Shown: positions 34,282-40,286 of the stretch, one piece after another | How the letters are laid out: each line of letters opens with the position of its first letter | Position numbering within the stretch: position 1 is the stretch's first letter | Source of the DNA: a virus | Virus record (IMG/VR): IMGVR_UViG_3300036893_000059 | Location: 1 to 42,005 of that record | Reading direction: 5' to 3' (one strand) | Length of the DNA stretch: 42,005 nucleotides | Program-made: the position numbers and the translations under genes | Notes under the pieces: model-generated | What the model was told of the DNA's origin: nothing | What the model saw: the letters and a program-made list of their open reading frames with translations, nothing else | The model's database searches: none

Positions 34282-34310
34282 TTGACAGTAGGTCAATCGT
34301 AAGTTAGAGT
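34282..34310 (+). promoter_or_regulatory. sigma70-like promoter with inverted repeat
   Basis: TTGACA, 17-base spacer, TAGAGT. TTGAC...GTCAA forms an inverted repeat over the -35 region, and ATCGTAA occurs on both sides. ATG at 34317 follows the -10 box by six bases. Confidence 0.65.
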
Positions 34311-34880: not shown

Positions 34881-34956
34881 ACGGTTCTACCATTGCCAAG
34901 GGTATATCATCGTCCGCACCGATGAGAACGGCGAGGACGAAAAGATTGAGACTTGA
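34870..34956 (+). CDS. Possible 28-aa peptide
   Basis: ATG 34870 overlaps the end of the previous gene; GGGGGGATA lies 7 bases upstream. Reads MLSERFYHCQGYIIVRT then an acidic tail. Its TGA stop lies inside the -35 box of the next promoter. Confidence 0.5.
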   Translation: MLSERFYHCQGYIIVRTDENGEDEKIET

Positions 34957-34981
34957 CGACAAGTGAATTGCGGTGTATAGT
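34953..34981 (+). promoter_or_regulatory. Strong sigma70-like promoter of the structured leader
   Basis: TTGACG, 17-base spacer, TATAGT. Predicted start near 34988, immediately before the left arm of the 21-base inverted repeat. The -35 box contains the stop codon of the 28-aa frame. Confidence 0.78.
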
Positions 34982-34987
34982 AAGTCA

Positions 34988-35123
34988 GTTCGATAGTTAA
35001 AGTCTGGGGCCGCCAGGTTCGATTCCTGAAGTTCTTAGGCTAGCTTGGGACTGTCTGGGTTCTTCAGAGCGGGACTTAAGCTCCCCCACCATGAAGAGGC
35101 CGGCCCCAGACTTTTACTATCGG
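34988..35123 (+). ncRNA. Structured leader RNA closed by a 21-bp stem, with a T-arm-like hairpin
   Basis: 34991-35011 pairs with 35102-35122 in 20 of 21 positions; a T-G and a T-A pair outside may extend the stem into the GGAGGA binding site (35122-35127) of the next gene. Inside: CAGG-TTCGATT-CCTG (35014-35028), a perfect tRNA T-arm-like hairpin; CTGAAG/CTTCAG; GAGC/GCTC. From predicted start to binding site the RNA forms one closed unit of about 135 bases. Could be a riboswitch-like leader, an independent small RNA or a tRNA-like decoy. No complete tRNA can be drawn. Confidence 0.55.
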
Positions 35124-35132
35124 AGGAAATTC

Positions 35133-35327
35133 GTGAAGCAATATAGACGTAAGTTCGCCGATCTACCAATCGGATCGTTCTTCCAGACTCCCTACGGGGA
35201 ATCGACATGGGAGAAGATATCGGCCCGGGCGATCCGGGATTGCAACACTCTGGACCGATTGTCCGGTGTGCGGGCCGATGTTCCAGTGCAAGCTTTTGGC
35301 CAGAAGGCCAGAGGGAGTTCAAAATGA
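35133..35327 (+). CDS. Small conserved-type phage protein (FxDLPxGSFF)
   Basis: 64 aa, GTG start at 35133 because CGGAGGAAATTC is a perfect site; ATG at 35091 lies in the leader stem. Reads KFADLPIGSFFQTP, STWEKISARAI: the pattern F.dLp.Gs.F......W.Kis.r.A recurs in small phage proteins of unknown role. ATGA overlap with the next gene. Confidence 0.72.
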   Translation: MKQYRRKFADLPIGSFFQTPYGESTWEKISARAIRDCNTLDRLSGVRADVPVQAFGQKARGSSK

Positions 35328-35584
35328 AGCGAGGAACTAAGATTACCGTTACGCAAGAGGACATTGATAGGGGTGCTCGAAACAGCCTCACCGATTGCCC
35401 GGTCGCACGGGCGGTCAACCGGATTTTTTCCGGTGCTGTAGTTAACACCCAGGATATTGAAGTAAGTAACGGCCGCATGGAACGAACGTTTCAGTGGGCC
35501 CCCGTACGGGTCCAACAGTTCGTGAGGCGGTTCGACAAGGCAAAGCCGGTCAAGCCGTTCTCGTTCTTTCTGCGGCCGGTCTAG
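35324..35584 (+). CDS. VTxEDI paralogue family, member 2
   Basis: 86 aa. MKRGTKITVTQEDIDRGARN, then DCPVARAVNRIF, a strand, and VRQFVRRFDKAKPVKPFSF with an LRPV end. Closest to member 1 (74-343): the same CPVA helix, FD.G/A..VKPF block and LRPV C-terminus. GGGAGTTC upstream. Function unknown. Confidence 0.85.
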   Translation: MKRGTKITVTQEDIDRGARNSLTDCPVARAVNRIFSGAVVNTQDIEVSNGRMERTFQWAPVRVQQFVRRFDKAKPVKPFSFFLRPV

Positions 35585-35602
35585 ATGTTCACTTCGATTC
35601 CC

Positions 35603-35631
35603 TTGCCAACAGGGGGATCGTAGGGTATATC
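35603..35631 (+). promoter_or_regulatory. Promoter-like pair
   Basis: TTGCCA, 17-base spacer, TATATC, followed by TTACTGGAGG. Moderate -35. Confidence 0.55.
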
Positions 35632-35646
35632 TTACTGGAGGAAAAC

Positions 35647-35949
35647 ATGGAACAGACACCGAAGAAGACACTGGTATTTTCCGTTACGCAGGAAGACCTG
35701 GATGCTGGGCCGTTTGCAGACGACCCCAGTTCTGGTTACGTTCGGAGCCCGCTCTATCGGGCGATATTCCGGGCACTGGGCCTGAAAGAAGACCCCACGA
35801 ACCACCAGACGTACCCTCAATCGTACGGGGTGGAAGTTCCCGGTGGCAGGTACTTCGGTTCGATCCGATATTACCGGTTCATGCACAACCTGTATCGTGG
35901 CCGGAAGAACAAGCCGACTACGTTTCGACTGCAGCTGGAACGGCCCTGA
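35647..35949 (+). CDS. VTxEDI paralogue family, member 3
   Basis: 100 aa. KTLVFSVTQEDLDAG start, then YVRSPLYRAIFRALG in place of the CPVA helix, GSIRYYRFMHNLYRG, KPTTFRLQLE. Shares with member 4 the block GSIRY.RF...L..G...KPT.FRL. Site ACTGGAGGAAAAC. Confidence 0.82.
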   Translation: MEQTPKKTLVFSVTQEDLDAGPFADDPSSGYVRSPLYRAIFRALGLKEDPTNHQTYPQSYGVEVPGGRYFGSIRYYRFMHNLYRGRKNKPTTFRLQLERP

Positions 35950-35982
35950 GGGGCCTTCGTATGGCAATTTACTGGAGGAAAC

Positions 35983-36186
35983 ATGGGAGACCTTACGGGC
36001 GACATTATCGCTTTTGAAGAGGGTGAGCTTGGGCTCACTGAGACAATCGATCTCTTCGCCCGCTTGGTGAAGAGCGGGCTCGCTTGGACACTACAAGGTT
36101 CGTATGGCCGTGCGGCCATGAACCTGATCAAGCAGGGGTTCATTTCCCGGGACGGAAACGTGCTCGGTTATCCCGGAGAGGAGTAG
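35983..36186 (+). CDS. DUF7417-like small protein
   Basis: 67 aa. IAFEEGELGLTETIDLFARLVKSGLAWTLQGSYGRAAMNLIKQGFI: the pattern yE.GeL...Eti.LF..Lv.sGlaW.LQGsYGR.A..Li..G is a common phage small protein family (name from memory). Site ACTGGAGGAAAC, almost the same as for 35647 and 37089. Function unknown. Confidence 0.8.
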   Translation: MGDLTGDIIAFEEGELGLTETIDLFARLVKSGLAWTLQGSYGRAAMNLIKQGFISRDGNVLGYPGEE

Positions 36187-36189
36187 CAC

Positions 36190-36375
36190 ATGACGCGGAA
36201 AGATCACATTCTCATTGCCTGGGCCCTTGACGAATCACGTCATGCGACCCTGGCAGGACAGCCCGGCTTTCAGGCTTGCTTTGAATGTATCCGGGAATTC
36301 ATCGCGGACGCATTGGCATGGAACAATGGCCAGTTTGACCGCGATTGGTTCATCCGGGCGACGGAGGGAAAATGA
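36190..36375 (+). CDS. Small hypothetical protein
   Basis: 61 aa. MTRKDHILIAWALDESRH, then ECIREFIADALAWNNGQFDRDWFIRA. The last part (N..FDRD.F..A) is typical of many short phage proteins from early regions. Starts three bases after the previous stop; ATGA overlap with the next gene. Confidence 0.75.
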   Translation: MTRKDHILIAWALDESRHATLAGQPGFQACFECIREFIADALAWNNGQFDRDWFIRATEGK

Positions 36376-36716
36376 AGGTCAAGATAACACCGTTTCACGT
36401 CTGCAAGTCCTACTGGCGGGCCGATGGGTGCTATCGTACTCCACTGGGCCAGGCCCTGATGGAAAACGATCAAGACCTGTTCATCCTGGCCGTGGGCGAC
36501 GATGGGACGTTTATCTCGGTGTCCCCCAGCTTCGGCCGGACGTATCGATACAAGGCATCGGCCAACTACCTGCCATATTGGCAGCAATGGTTCGCCTGGG
36601 CGAGGACAACGAACGAGCCATCTTCATCGGATTTTGGCCCCAACATGCCAACCGACGAGATCGAGGTTGAACTGTTTCCGCTCAAGGCAGGGACGAACGA
36701 GATCGAACCCGCTTGA
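36372..36716 (+). CDS. Probable divergent VTxEDI family member
   Basis: 114 aa from ATG 36372 (ATGA overlap, GGAGGG upstream). MKVKITPFHVCKSYWRADGCYRTPLGQALM keeps the layout of members 3 and 4 (strand, spacer, helix RxPLxxAx), followed by a longer middle and an EVELF end strand. Lower similarity, so membership is an inference. Its TGA lies in the next -35 box. Confidence 0.72.
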   Translation: MKVKITPFHVCKSYWRADGCYRTPLGQALMENDQDLFILAVGDDGTFISVSPSFGRTYRYKASANYLPYWQQWFAWARTTNEPSSSDFGPNMPTDEIEVELFPLKAGTNEIEPA

Positions 36717-36741
36717 CGGTGGGGCGATTGTAGTGTATCCT
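36713..36741 (+). promoter_or_regulatory. sigma70-like promoter overlapping a stop codon
   Basis: TTGACG, 17-base spacer, TATCCT; the stop TGA of the previous gene is within the -35 box. CTGGAGGGTTT follows before ATG 36757. Confidence 0.68.
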
Positions 36742-36756
36742 TACCCTGGAGGGTTT

Positions 36757-37002
36757 ATGGCAAAAGAGACAATCGTGATCGATGTGACCCAGGCGGACAT
36801 TGAAATCGGCGGCTGGCGGCCCCGCGGGCCTTTGGTCCAGGCTATCTTGCGGGTTTTTCCTAGTGGGTATCCCCAGAGTGACGGTGTAAGTGACGGGGAC
36901 TCCATGGTATCCGGCTCCATCCGTTACAAGCGATTCTGCCGCCGGCTGGATAAGGGACTGTCCGTCAAGCCGACCAAGTTTCGCCTGACCCGCGAAGTCT
37001 GA
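36757..37002 (+). CDS. VTxEDI paralogue family, member 4
   Basis: 81 aa. ETIVIDVTQADIEIGGW, RGPLVQAILRVFPSGYP, GSIRYKRFCRRLDKGLSVKPTKFRLTREV. It bridges the subgroups: LDKGLSVKP as in members 1 and 2, GSIRY.RF and FRL as in member 3. Own promoter and site. Confidence 0.85.
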   Translation: MAKETIVIDVTQADIEIGGWRPRGPLVQAILRVFPSGYPQSDGVSDGDSMVSGSIRYKRFCRRLDKGLSVKPTKFRLTREV

Positions 37003-37011
37003 GGATCAATT

Positions 37012-37067
37012 GGAAGGGTACGCCGGCCGAAAGGCAGCGGGCGATCTCGCTAACGGGCGGCCCTTCC
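37012..37067 (+). ncRNA. Structured intergenic element, copy A
   Basis: Outer stem GGAAGGG (37012-37018) with CCCTTCC (37061-37067). Inside: GCC-GAAA-GGC (37026-37035, GNRA loop) and AGCGGG-CGAT-CTCGCT (37036-37051). TATAGTTTCTC follows, then AGGAGGAAAC and the ATG at 37089. Copy B lies at 37815-37873. May act as an attenuator or a protein-binding leader. Confidence 0.5.
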
Positions 37068-37088
37068 TATAGTTTCTCAGGAGGAAAC

Positions 37089-37796
37089 ATGAAGTATGAA
37101 AAACTAATTCCCATCGAGGTCGTGGTGACACAGAAGCACCTCGATGAGGGATACCACAGCAACCCGGGAAAACTTGGTGCTTTTCAACACGACCCAGTTG
37201 CCCTGGCCCTGGTGGATGCTGGCATTCACGAGGCCCGTGTGGAACTCTCTACGTTTTATCGGGCCACGTTCCCGGACGCAGTGTACAAACTTCCCGAGAA
37301 GGCACAGAGAATCGTGTTGGCCTACCTGGACGGTCGCACAGTGAGGGTGCCCCAGAAATTCACGGTCCGGGTGCCGGAGTCCTGGCGGGATGCACCAGCA
37401 CCAGCACCGGAGTTTCCCGTGCCGGACGGATTCCAGCAGAAGATTCTCACGGCCATTGAGGGCCTGAAGAAAAGGCTGGAAGAGCGGGAGCCCCAGGAGA
37501 AATGGTACCTGGACCGCCGCGGCGGGGTTGCATCAAGACGGAAGAGCCAGTGTGGCACTCCCATGCTTGGCCAGCGGCATCATCGAGGCCGGCGGAAGTC
37601 TGATCTCGATCTTTACAAGACCTTACCCGTCTCCCCGCCACGAGAAAAGGAGCCCCAGAAGAAGTGGTACCAAGATCGTCGGGGTGGAGTCGCATCAAGG
37701 CGGAAGAGCCAGTGTGGCACTCCCGCCCGGCTCCGGCGGTGGGGCCGTTGCCGGCGGAAATATGACAGAGAGCTTATCGTCACCTTGCCCGCCTGA
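37089..37796 (+). CDS. VTxEDI family member 5 fused to two 47-residue cationic repeats
   Basis: 235 aa. Residues 1-100 match the family: IPIEVVVTQKHLDEG, DPVALALVDAG, a strand part, LDGRTVRVPQKFTVRV. After a Pro/Ala linker and short helix (FQQKILTAIEGLKKRLEER) come two repeats of 47 residues (about 134-180, 188-234): EPQxKWYxDRRGG then VASRRKSQCGTP, xxxxRxxRxRRKxDxxL..TLP. Strong positive charge and a conserved Cys suggest nucleic acid binding; not recognised. Site AGGAGGAAAC. Confidence 0.82.
   Translation: MKYEKLIPIEVVVTQKHLDEGYHSNPGKLGAFQHDPVALALVDAGIHEARVELSTFYRATFPDAVYKLPEKAQRIVLAYLDGRTVRVPQKFTVRVPESWRDAPAPAPEFPVPDGFQQKILTAIEGLKKRLEEREPQEKWYLDRRGGVASRRKSQCGTPMLGQRHHRGRRKSDLDLYKTLPVSPPREKEPQKKWYQDRRGGVASRRKSQCGTPARLRRWGRCRRKYDRELIVTLPA
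37488..37628 (+). repeat. 141-base coding repeat, unit 1
   Basis: First of two units of equal length (47 codons) in the gene 37089-37796; 33 of 47 residues are identical with unit 2. Confidence 0.85.
37650..37790 (+). repeat. 141-base coding repeat, unit 2
   Basis: Second unit, 21 bases after unit 1. In the conserved core most differences from unit 1 are silent third-base changes. Confidence 0.85.
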
Positions 37797-37814
37797 CCGC
37801 GTTGAAGACCAATT

Positions 37815-37873
37815 GGAAGGGCCAGGCCGGTGCCGGAAGGCGGCGGGTGGCACCGCTGACTACCGGCCCTTCC
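37815..37873 (+). ncRNA. Structured intergenic element, copy B
   Basis: Outer stem GGAAGGGCC (37815-37823) with GGCCCTTCC (37865-37873). Inside: GCC-GGAA-GGC (37032-position equivalent at 37832-37841, GNRA loop) and GGCGG/CCGCT (37842-37846, 37853-37857). CAATTGG before and TATAGTT after are shared with copy A. Lies between the stop at 37796 and the ATG at 37904. Confidence 0.5.
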
Positions 37874-37903
37874 TATAGTTCTTCACAAGAAAGGAAGTGA
37901 TCG

Positions 37904-38239
37904 ATGTTTGGAAACTACGGATACGGACCGTACCAGGGCGGACAGACCCTGAAACAGATCAAGGATGCCGAATTGGCTGAGGCCAAGGCGAACGGCTCCG
38001 TCCCGCCGCGGCCGTTCGGGCTTGTGGGCACGAACCTCACGGGCCCCTTCGACCCGCTTGGGCCCGATACTGATGAGAGCCAGGACGGGACGGAGCCGGC
38101 CGTGACAGTTCCCGCCGCGACGGACAAGGTGACAGAGGCCGATCGCAACCTGCTCGAATCTCTCGGGCTCCCTCGCGACGGTTCGGACCCTGACCCGCAG
38201 GGCCTGCCCCAGACGCACGATGATGCGTTCGGGAAGTGA
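37904..38239 (+). CDS. Hypothetical acidic protein
   Basis: 111 aa. Aromatic Gly-rich start (MFGNYGYGPYQGG), a short helix (TLKQIKDAELAEAKANG), then Pro/Asp-rich disordered sequence with VTEADRNLLESLGLPRDG near the end. No family. AAAGGAAGTGATCG precedes the ATG. Precedes the polymerase leader. Confidence 0.7.
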   Translation: MFGNYGYGPYQGGQTLKQIKDAELAEAKANGSVPPRPFGLVGTNLTGPFDPLGPDTDESQDGTEPAVTVPAATDKVTEADRNLLESLGLPRDGSDPDPQGLPQTHDDAFGK

Positions 38240-38246
38240 TGTTCGT

Positions 38247-38389
38247 GGAGAGAGCGGCAAGTAGCGACGGACTTGCAACCGTGATATCGGGCCGCTGTGA
38301 ATACGCAAAGGGCGACAGTTAAGCCTGTCTAGGTGCCCCCGATCCAAGGGGCGGAATAAACAGACCGAGGGTCAAACCCTCCTCTCTCC
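38247..38389 (+). ncRNA. Multi-helix RNA fold ending one base before the DNA polymerase ATG
   Basis: Closing stem GGAGAGAG (38247-38254) with CTCTCTCC (38382-38389), perfect. Inside: hairpin GCAAGT/ACTTGC (38257-38262, 38271-38276) whose loop ACGG (38267-38270) can pair with CCGT (38279-38282) as a pseudoknot; CTGT/ACAG (38295-38298, 38360-38363); GGGC-GACAG ... CTGTC ... GCCC (38310-38338); CCCC/GGGG (38337-38351); GAGGG-TCAAA-CCCTC (38367-38381), which abuts the closing stem. No purine-rich binding site precedes ATG 38391; the only one (GGAGAGAG) is the paired 5' arm. Not a known class that I can name. Confidence 0.55.
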
Positions 38390-38390
38390 T

Positions 38391-40286
38391 ATGAATCAAC
38401 TCATTGTCATCGACTTTGAAACGTACTGGGACAAGACGTACAGCCTACGTCGCAAGAATTGCCCCATCCCGAATTACGTTCTGGATCACCGGTTCAAAGT
38501 CCTGATGGTTGGACTGGGCGAGCTTGACGCGGCTGGCAAGTGGGCCACGTTCCTCCTGGCCCCTGAGCGGCTGCCGGAACTCAAGGCCAAGCTGGAATCG
38601 TCCGTGGTAATCGGCCACAACCTGGCCTTCGATGCGTTCGTTCTGAAGCATAGGTATGGGATTGTTCCGCGGGGCTACATCGATACCCTCGGTATGGCCA
38701 ACGCGGTCCTGGGCCCAAAGGCGGCCACGGGACAGAAGAATGACCTGGGCGAGTTGGCCAAGCGGTTGGGCCTGGGCGAGGAGAAGGGTGATCTCAAGTT
38801 CATGTGTGGTGTCAGTGATCCCACTATGGAACAGACGGCCCAACTCGCCGAGTACCTGGCCCACGATATCAGCATCACCTGCCGCCTGTTCGATTACCTG
38901 CGGCCCCGCTTCTCTGCATCCGGCCGTGCCGAGTACCAGATAATGGACCGGACGATCCAGGCATTCGTGACGAACCCGGCCACGGTGGACATCGATAAGG
39001 CTAAGGAAGCCGCGGCAAAGATCGAGGCCCGCCGCTGTCACTATGAGACCGAGGCCGGCCTGGACCGGAAGGTGCTGTCGTCCAATCTGCAATTCGTGGC
39101 AGCCCTGGCCGAGAAGCTAAAGGCCCATGGCCTGGAAGTGCCAACTAAGAAATCGCCCCGGTCGGGTAAGGAAATCCCGGCCCTGGCAAAGAATGATGAT
39201 GCGTTCAAGGCCCTATCCACCAAGGGGCCAGCCGATGTTCAGAAGCTCGTTCGGGCCCGCCTGCGGTTCCGCAGTCTTACCGTGGCCAAGGCCCGCATTA
39301 ACAAGATGACCGCGGCCCCGGCCGGGAAGCTGCATCCGTTCCTGGTCTATCATGGTGCCCACACGGGCCGATGGGCCGGCGGTGGAGGCTTCCAGTGGCA
39401 GAACCTCACGGACCCGGATCGGCTCAAGGAGCCAGAGGAAAAGTATGTTGCCGAAGTCACACGGGACTGCATCACGGCAGGCCCTGGCCGCGTGTTTATA
39501 TCAGCGGACTACGCGGCAATTGAGGCTCGCGTTCTTGCGTGGGCTGCTGGAGAGGCACAACTGGCAGAAGCTTTCCGTCAGGGATCGGACGTGTATTCTC
39601 TCTTCGCTTCGGCCTTACTTGGACGGGAGGTCCGCAAGCCTACGGCTAAGGAGCCCCTGGCCGACTGTGCCCGTTTGAAGGCCGACCGCCAGCTTGGCAA
39701 GGCCGCGATCCTGGGCCTGGGCTATGGGATGGGGGCCAAGAAATTCTCCCTCCAGTCCCGCATCGATAGGGAACTGGCCGAGAAGTCGGTCACGTTATAC
39801 CGCGGGAAGTACCGCTCGATCGTGGCCTTCTGGGCCAACGTGGATCGGGCCTTCAAGAATGTGCTTATGGGCGAGAACGGCACGACAGAGACCGTCTGGC
39901 CCTGTACGTTCTTCAAGGGCAGCGACTCGGCCGTGGGGATAAAGCTTCCGTCCGGCCGCGTCCTGCGGTATCGGAACGTTCGGCACCTGGGCAAAGACCT
40001 GGTGTGGGGCAACAAGAAACGTCTGTACGGCGGCAGCATCACCGAGAACATCGTGCAGGCCATTGCCCGGGACATCATGCGAGAAGCTATTCTGGACTTG
40101 AACCCATCGGGGGGTGCCTTCGATATGCACTTCTTCGCATCGGTGCATGACAGCATATACTGCACCGTCCCAAGGGAGTTTAGCGAACTGGCATACGGGA
40201 TTCTGGCCTCTTCCATGACCACGGTGCCGGCCTGGGCTACTGGCCTTCCCTTGTCCATCGAAGGCCATACTTCGGAGACTTTCTAA
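38391..40286 (+). CDS. Family A DNA polymerase with 3'-5' exonuclease
   Basis: 631 aa. Exonuclease: IVIDFET (D8, E10), IGHNLAFDAF (N77, D81), EYLAHD (Y155, D159), complete. Polymerase: HTGRWAGGGGFQWQNL near 325, motif A ISADYAAIEARVLAW (D373), motif B GKAAILGLGYGMG (K437), motif C VHDSIY (D587). The residue equal to Phe762 of E. coli Pol I is Leu441. Replicates the genome with the DnaB-like helicase. It starts directly behind the structured leader with no ribosome binding site; one base separates its stop from the next ATG. Confidence 0.95.
   Translation: MNQLIVIDFETYWDKTYSLRRKNCPIPNYVLDHRFKVLMVGLGELDAAGKWATFLLAPERLPELKAKLESSVVIGHNLAFDAFVLKHRYGIVPRGYIDTLGMANAVLGPKAATGQKNDLGELAKRLGLGEEKGDLKFMCGVSDPTMEQTAQLAEYLAHDISITCRLFDYLRPRFSASGRAEYQIMDRTIQAFVTNPATVDIDKAKEAAAKIEARRCHYETEAGLDRKVLSSNLQFVAALAEKLKAHGLEVPTKKSPRSGKEIPALAKNDDAFKALSTKGPADVQKLVRARLRFRSLTVAKARINKMTAAPAGKLHPFLVYHGAHTGRWAGGGGFQWQNLTDPDRLKEPEEKYVAEVTRDCITAGPGRVFISADYAAIEARVLAWAAGEAQLAEAFRQGSDVYSLFASALLGREVRKPTAKEPLADCARLKADRQLGKAAILGLGYGMGAKKFSLQSRIDRELAEKSVTLYRGKYRSIVAFWANVDRAFKNVLMGENGTTETVWPCTFFKGSDSAVGIKLPSGRVLRYRNVRHLGKDLVWGNKKRLYGGSITENIVQAIARDIMREAILDLNPSGGAFDMHFFASVHDSIYCTVPREFSELAYGILASSMTTVPAWATGLPLSIEGHTSETF

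Follow-up and report, generated by a model that had tools for sequence, protein, structure and literature searches.

In the virus record IMGVR_UViG_3300036893_000059, the start codon of the DNA polymerase gene is predicted to lie within a 13-bp RNA helix whose partner strand follows directly on the stop codon of the preceding gene. The window, i.e. the stretch of DNA that was analysed, is the entire virus record of 42,005 bases. The reading we favour, tentatively and at somewhat less than even probability, is that this fold is a translational-coupling element of the RNA-unfolding type. The computed evidence comprises the pairing, its rarity under shuffling, the certain start of the polymerase gene, the missing Shine-Dalgarno (SD) sequence and the predicted release of the start by ribosome occupancy. 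The features of the locus are compiled in Table 1.

Table 1. Features at the polymerase start and related intercistronic RNAs in the same phage.
Feature	Position	Strand	Description
Upstream ORF	37904..38239	+	111 aa, no family; strong SD AAAGGAAGTGA; stop TGA 38237-38239
SD-like stretch GGGAAGTGAT	38231..38240	+	partial complement of the 16S 3' end, found by eye; overlaps the upstream stop codon
Closing helix, 5' strand	38241..38254	+	GUUCGU-GGAGAGAG, from pair probabilities; 2-3 nt past the upstream stop
Hairpin 1	38257..38276	+	6 bp, loop AGCGACGG; P ~0.95
Central part	38278..38334	+	two near-equal alternative folds, P 0.35 vs 0.6
Hairpin GCCCC/GGGGC	38335..38352	+	P ~0.97
Hairpin GAGGGU-CAA-ACCCUC	38367..38381	+	stacked directly onto the closing helix; P ~1.0
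Closing helix, 3' strand	38382..38396	+	CUCUCUCC-(U bulge)-AUGAAU, from pair probabilities; holds the start codon; 2/1000 shuffles
Family A DNA polymerase with 3'-5' exonuclease	38391..40286	+	631 aa (Pfam); start certain from sequence comparison
Element A	34991-35122		very stable closed multi-branch RNA; 22-position helix with one mismatch
B1	37000-37079		intercistronic RNA, paralogue of B2; imperfect closing helix of ~20 positions
B2	37803-37885		intercistronic RNA, paralogue of B1; imperfect closing helix of ~20 positions

By sequence comparison, the polymerase start at 38391 is certain, since homologue alignments begin at residue 1 (MNQLIVIDFETY) and no earlier start is present in frame; it is the only standard start codon upstream of the exonuclease motif DFET, which occupies residues 8-11. 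The objection raised in the initial annotation of this DNA, that the real start might lie elsewhere, therefore fails.

The initial annotation had described a structured RNA closed by a perfect 8-bp stem, with the ATG following after a single base. This is indeed what we see: GGAGAGAG (38247-38254) pairs with CTCTCTCC (38382-38389), and U38390 alone separates the stem from the ATG at 38391. Energy folding, suggested there as a check, bears out the fold as a prediction. The 145-nt stretch has a minimum free energy of -58.5 kcal/mol (z -3.5), and not one of 200 shuffles reached a value as low. Stability alone is not exceptional, since an equal or lower z occurs in 18 of the 1164 same-size windows of the genome, and a GC-corrected comparison finds ~2.9% of the windows to be as stable as the focal fold. 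From the at least five internal helices claimed, three hairpins emerge as robust (38257-62/38271-76, 38335-39/38348-52 and 38367-72/38376-81; P ~0.9 or more for most pairs), whereas the stretch 38278-38334 is ambiguous between two alternatives. The suggested loop-to-3' pseudoknot (ACGG/CCGU) is unlikely because it leaves no more than 2 nt (AA, 38277-38278) to bridge a 6-bp stem. In an H-type pseudoknot loop 3 spans stem 1; judged by geometry and sequence only, the 2 nt available for the 6-bp stem make this pairing sterically improbable.

When the RNA was folded together with its flanking sequence, it became apparent that the closing stem extends through the start codon, which had been overlooked in the initial annotation. 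Past the bulged U38390, UUCGU (38242-38246) pairs with AUGAA (38391-38395; P 0.95, 0.99, 0.99, 0.98 and 0.77) through the pairs U38246-A38391, G38245-U38392, C38244-G38393, U38243-A38394 and U38242-A38395, and the resulting predicted 13-bp helix encloses the start codon. The pair probability of the AUG is 0.95-0.99 across several sequence contexts and at least 0.92 at 20-50 °C; under another energy set the pairing is weaker (~0.75-0.84). In dinucleotide shuffles, confined to the 151-nt spacer, the AUG was paired as strongly with the stop-proximal stretch in 2 of 1000 cases, and the overall pairing of positions -15..+12 was reached by none of 1000 spacer shuffles. Opening the region -15..+12 of the polymerase start costs 15.4 kcal/mol, the third highest value among 39 starts. 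According to the folding model, the downstream start is thus sequestered in RNA structure, which is a hallmark of RNA-unfolding coupling.

The claim that the polymerase ATG lacks a usable ribosome-binding site also stands, as the predicted anti-SD pairing is zero. Only one other start among the 48 tested, a doubtful TTG, shares this value, and all other early starts on this strand show some pairing with the 16S tail, usually with GGAGG. With the fold looped out, 11 nt would separate the stretch GGGAAGTGAT at 38231..38240 from the AUG. The initial annotation had further proposed that polymerase synthesis may depend on the fold. Such a dependence is plausible, and better supported than its author could know, because the AUG itself is paired. 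The ribosome-recruiting role that was offered as one form of it is disfavoured, since the fold hides the start and no free SD lies nearby.

In the proposed coupling, the SD-less polymerase AUG would by default be locked in the 13-bp helix by the strand directly after the upstream stop, and the multi-helix body would juxtapose the two helix strands, which are ~145 nt apart. A ribosome terminating on the upstream gene would cover roughly 38222-38250, strip off the 5' strand of the helix and thereby free the AUG. When the segment 38222-38250 was treated as held by a ribosome, the cost of opening -15..+12 fell from 16.6 to 9.4 kcal/mol (computed in a slightly wider context than the value above), which is a mid-range value for the starts of this genome; for the AUG by itself, constrained folding gave a decrease from 3.6 to 0.6 kcal/mol. 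By geometry and constrained folding only, an upstream ribosome is predicted to reach and disrupt the structure that hides the start, as coupling of this type demands. Lacking an SD, the opened start must initiate weakly; polymerase output would be low and tied to translation of the upstream gene. We infer that the helix forms in the cell, blocks initiation and is opened by the upstream ribosome.

Coupling by RNA unfolding is an established model (PMC12548453), and the coat-replicase pair of MS2 is its classical case (PMC9894550). As in MS2 and in rpmI-rplT of E. coli, the downstream start is hidden by a pairing that upstream-gene ribosomes would undo, and in MS2 the hidden gene likewise encodes a polymerase. 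In contrast to both systems, the partner strand at the focal locus lies just past the stop codon and not within the upstream gene, the start is devoid of an SD, and a 130-nt multi-helix body is situated between the strands on the mRNA of a DNA phage. It counts against coupling that the compact body is far larger than sequestration requires. Structure just past an upstream stop can moreover reduce coupling, according to Chemla et al. as cited in PMC12548453, which also speaks against our reading.

A search for relatives of the RNA gave the following picture. With the Rfam 15 covariance models, neither gathering nor relaxed thresholds yielded anything credible, and there was no match on the + strand and only weak ones on the - strand; a weak twister match on the latter was rejected. 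The tRNA and tmRNA models (ARAGORN, Rfam) made no call at default or gathering thresholds, and relaxed ARAGORN settings gave chance-like matches only. No RNA relatives were detected by DNA patterns in viral contigs or by blastn in phages and plasmids, nor by the covariance search recommended in the initial annotation, for which a single-sequence model was run on 66 related loci (0.8 Mb). A 21-base exact match in an Acidobacteria MAG was dismissed as chance, for it falls inside the coding sequence of a ParA-like protein and is limited to hairpin 1. None of 13 relatives in which a spacer precedes the polymerase gene showed the start-to-stop pairing, and a terminase scan across bacterial genomes revealed no prophage relative. 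Since there is one sequence only and no RNA homologue was found, covariation support is lacking, and this is the main weakness of the case for coupling. The failure to find RNA relatives is itself weak evidence, as the collections perhaps miss near relatives of the record.

A loss of the pairing in homologous phages that keep the gene had been named as an observation that would speak against a functional fold. In part, this is what we see: relatives at 34-41% identity do keep the gene without the RNA, but they are too distant, and their gene is mostly placed directly against its upstream neighbour; this marks the element as lineage-specific rather than non-functional. Most distant homologues have a polymerase start that lies within the end of the upstream gene (often by a 4-nt overlap) or directly after it, commonly without an SD. 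Such overlap or abutment is the usual layout for coupling and counts in its favour. Coupling would then be the usual arrangement for this gene, and the fold would preserve it across the spacer in this phage. The two nearest phages by polymerase (40-41%) are L150 and G007. L150 has TAG-CC-ATG at the polymerase start. In G007 the spacer measures ~62 nt and carries the promoter-like TTGCGG-17-TATACT; since the polymerase GTG stands only 5 nt after it (L141:7610-7642), the polymerase mRNA of this phage may be leaderless. Judged by eye from the sequence, the upstream gene in G007 resembles a thioredoxin-reductase-type flavoprotein, as in L150.

Other closed multi-branch RNAs, B1, B2 and element A, are found between genes of the same operon. 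A comparison of B1 with B2 revealed a compensatory change (G-C to A-U) as well as conserved mismatches, and the B1 helix extends from the upstream TGA itself to immediately before the next SD. Element A, just downstream of a promoter-like sequence (34953-34981), has a z of -4.6 with flanks and ~-6.9 when trimmed. Unlike the focal element, all three leave the next AUG outside the helix, and they could serve as RNase III sites or stabilise the mRNA. Element A also holds a perfect T-loop-like hairpin (CAGG-TTCGATT-CCTG), with no tRNA called. Elsewhere in the genome, a promoter-like TTGACA-17-TAGAGT (34282-34310) lies only 6 nt upstream of the ATG that opens a DUF7178 gene (34317), for which a leaderless mRNA is predicted. 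The region 35325-37002 contains several small paralogous ORFs with a common V-T-Q-E-D-I-like start, some with a sigma-70-like promoter upstream, and the ORF 37089-37796 includes a 76-nt direct repeat (37487-37562 and 37649-37724, 86% identical).

Because the RNA body exceeds the needs of sequestration, it could also be an operator, i.e. the binding site of a ligand or protein, most simply of the polymerase itself, that would stabilise or open the AUG helix. The presence of several stable hairpins and of two near-equal central folds in the leader of a DNA polymerase gene would suit this role, and gene 43 of T4 and RB69 has a comparable autogenous operator, a structured leader that immediately precedes the DNA polymerase gene of a phage. 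The T4 gp43, however, is a family B polymerase and binds one small hairpin of 16-18 nt, whereas the focal RNA of ~145 nt precedes a family A gene. Furthermore, there is no Rfam family match and no relative in which an aptamer core could be tested. We consider such an operator unlikely; its precedent is that of T4 and RB69, with T4 gp43 repressing its own mRNA (PMC3014915). The absence of any function, the fold being either a spacer of a GC-rich phage that folds well by chance or the remnant of an inserted RNA, appears rather improbable. It would account for the 18 of 1164 windows that fold as well and for an RNA that occurs in no relative found, but not for the specific pairing between start region and stop-proximal sequence, which shuffles almost never reach, nor for the sole early start without an SD.

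A processing signal is quite improbable, although several features recall the ends of a tRNA. Here, the structured RNA would be excised by RNase P/RNase Z or RNase III and leave a leaderless polymerase mRNA beginning at the AUG. The 8-bp stem is acceptor-like and is followed by two linker bases and a hairpin loop with the D-loop pattern A-R..GG-A, the linker-less stacked hairpin can be read as 4 bp with the 7-nt loop GUCAAAC (6/7 to TTCRANY; 11/50000 inner shuffles), and U38390, immediately 5' of the AUG, takes the discriminator position. In addition, gene 34317 and the polymerase of G007 look leaderless. Yet the tRNA motif was picked after the sequence had been seen, neither ARAGORN nor Rfam calls a tRNA or tmRNA, T54, U8 and a CCA are missing, and the pairing of the AUG itself is left unexplained. 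The same pairing has demoted to a very doubtful rival the notion of a split ribosome-binding site, in which a looped-out fold would bring the SD-like GGGAAGUGAU at the upstream stop, which is indeed present at 38231-38240, to ~11 nt from the AUG. In such a site the AUG is single-stranded outside the bridging structure, whereas here its pair probability is 0.95-0.99; in addition, a single nucleotide separates the 8-bp stem from the AUG, and part of the SD-like stretch is itself paired. Likewise, in T4 genes 25 and 38 an intercistronic structure separates the start codon from an SD-like stretch upstream; there, the structure between SD and AUG aids initiation, whereas the focal AUG is within the helix.

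Switches similar to the proposed coupling element are known, but the focal fold is unusually elaborate and is seen in one uncultured phage from one metagenomic record. A bolder version, which we hold to be rather unlikely, is a dedicated stop-to-start RNA bridge, where a compact multi-helix RNA would put the post-stop region onto an SD-less start and gate the polymerase by ribosome arrival, possibly also by a ligand or protein on the body; closed multi-branch RNAs occupy at least two further intercistronic gaps of the same phage. If coupling by RNA unfolding holds true, a tailed DNA phage would gate its replicative polymerase as the RNA phage MS2 gates its replicase, albeit with an SD-less start, and the locus would provide a compact case of a terminating ribosome passing control across a structured spacer.
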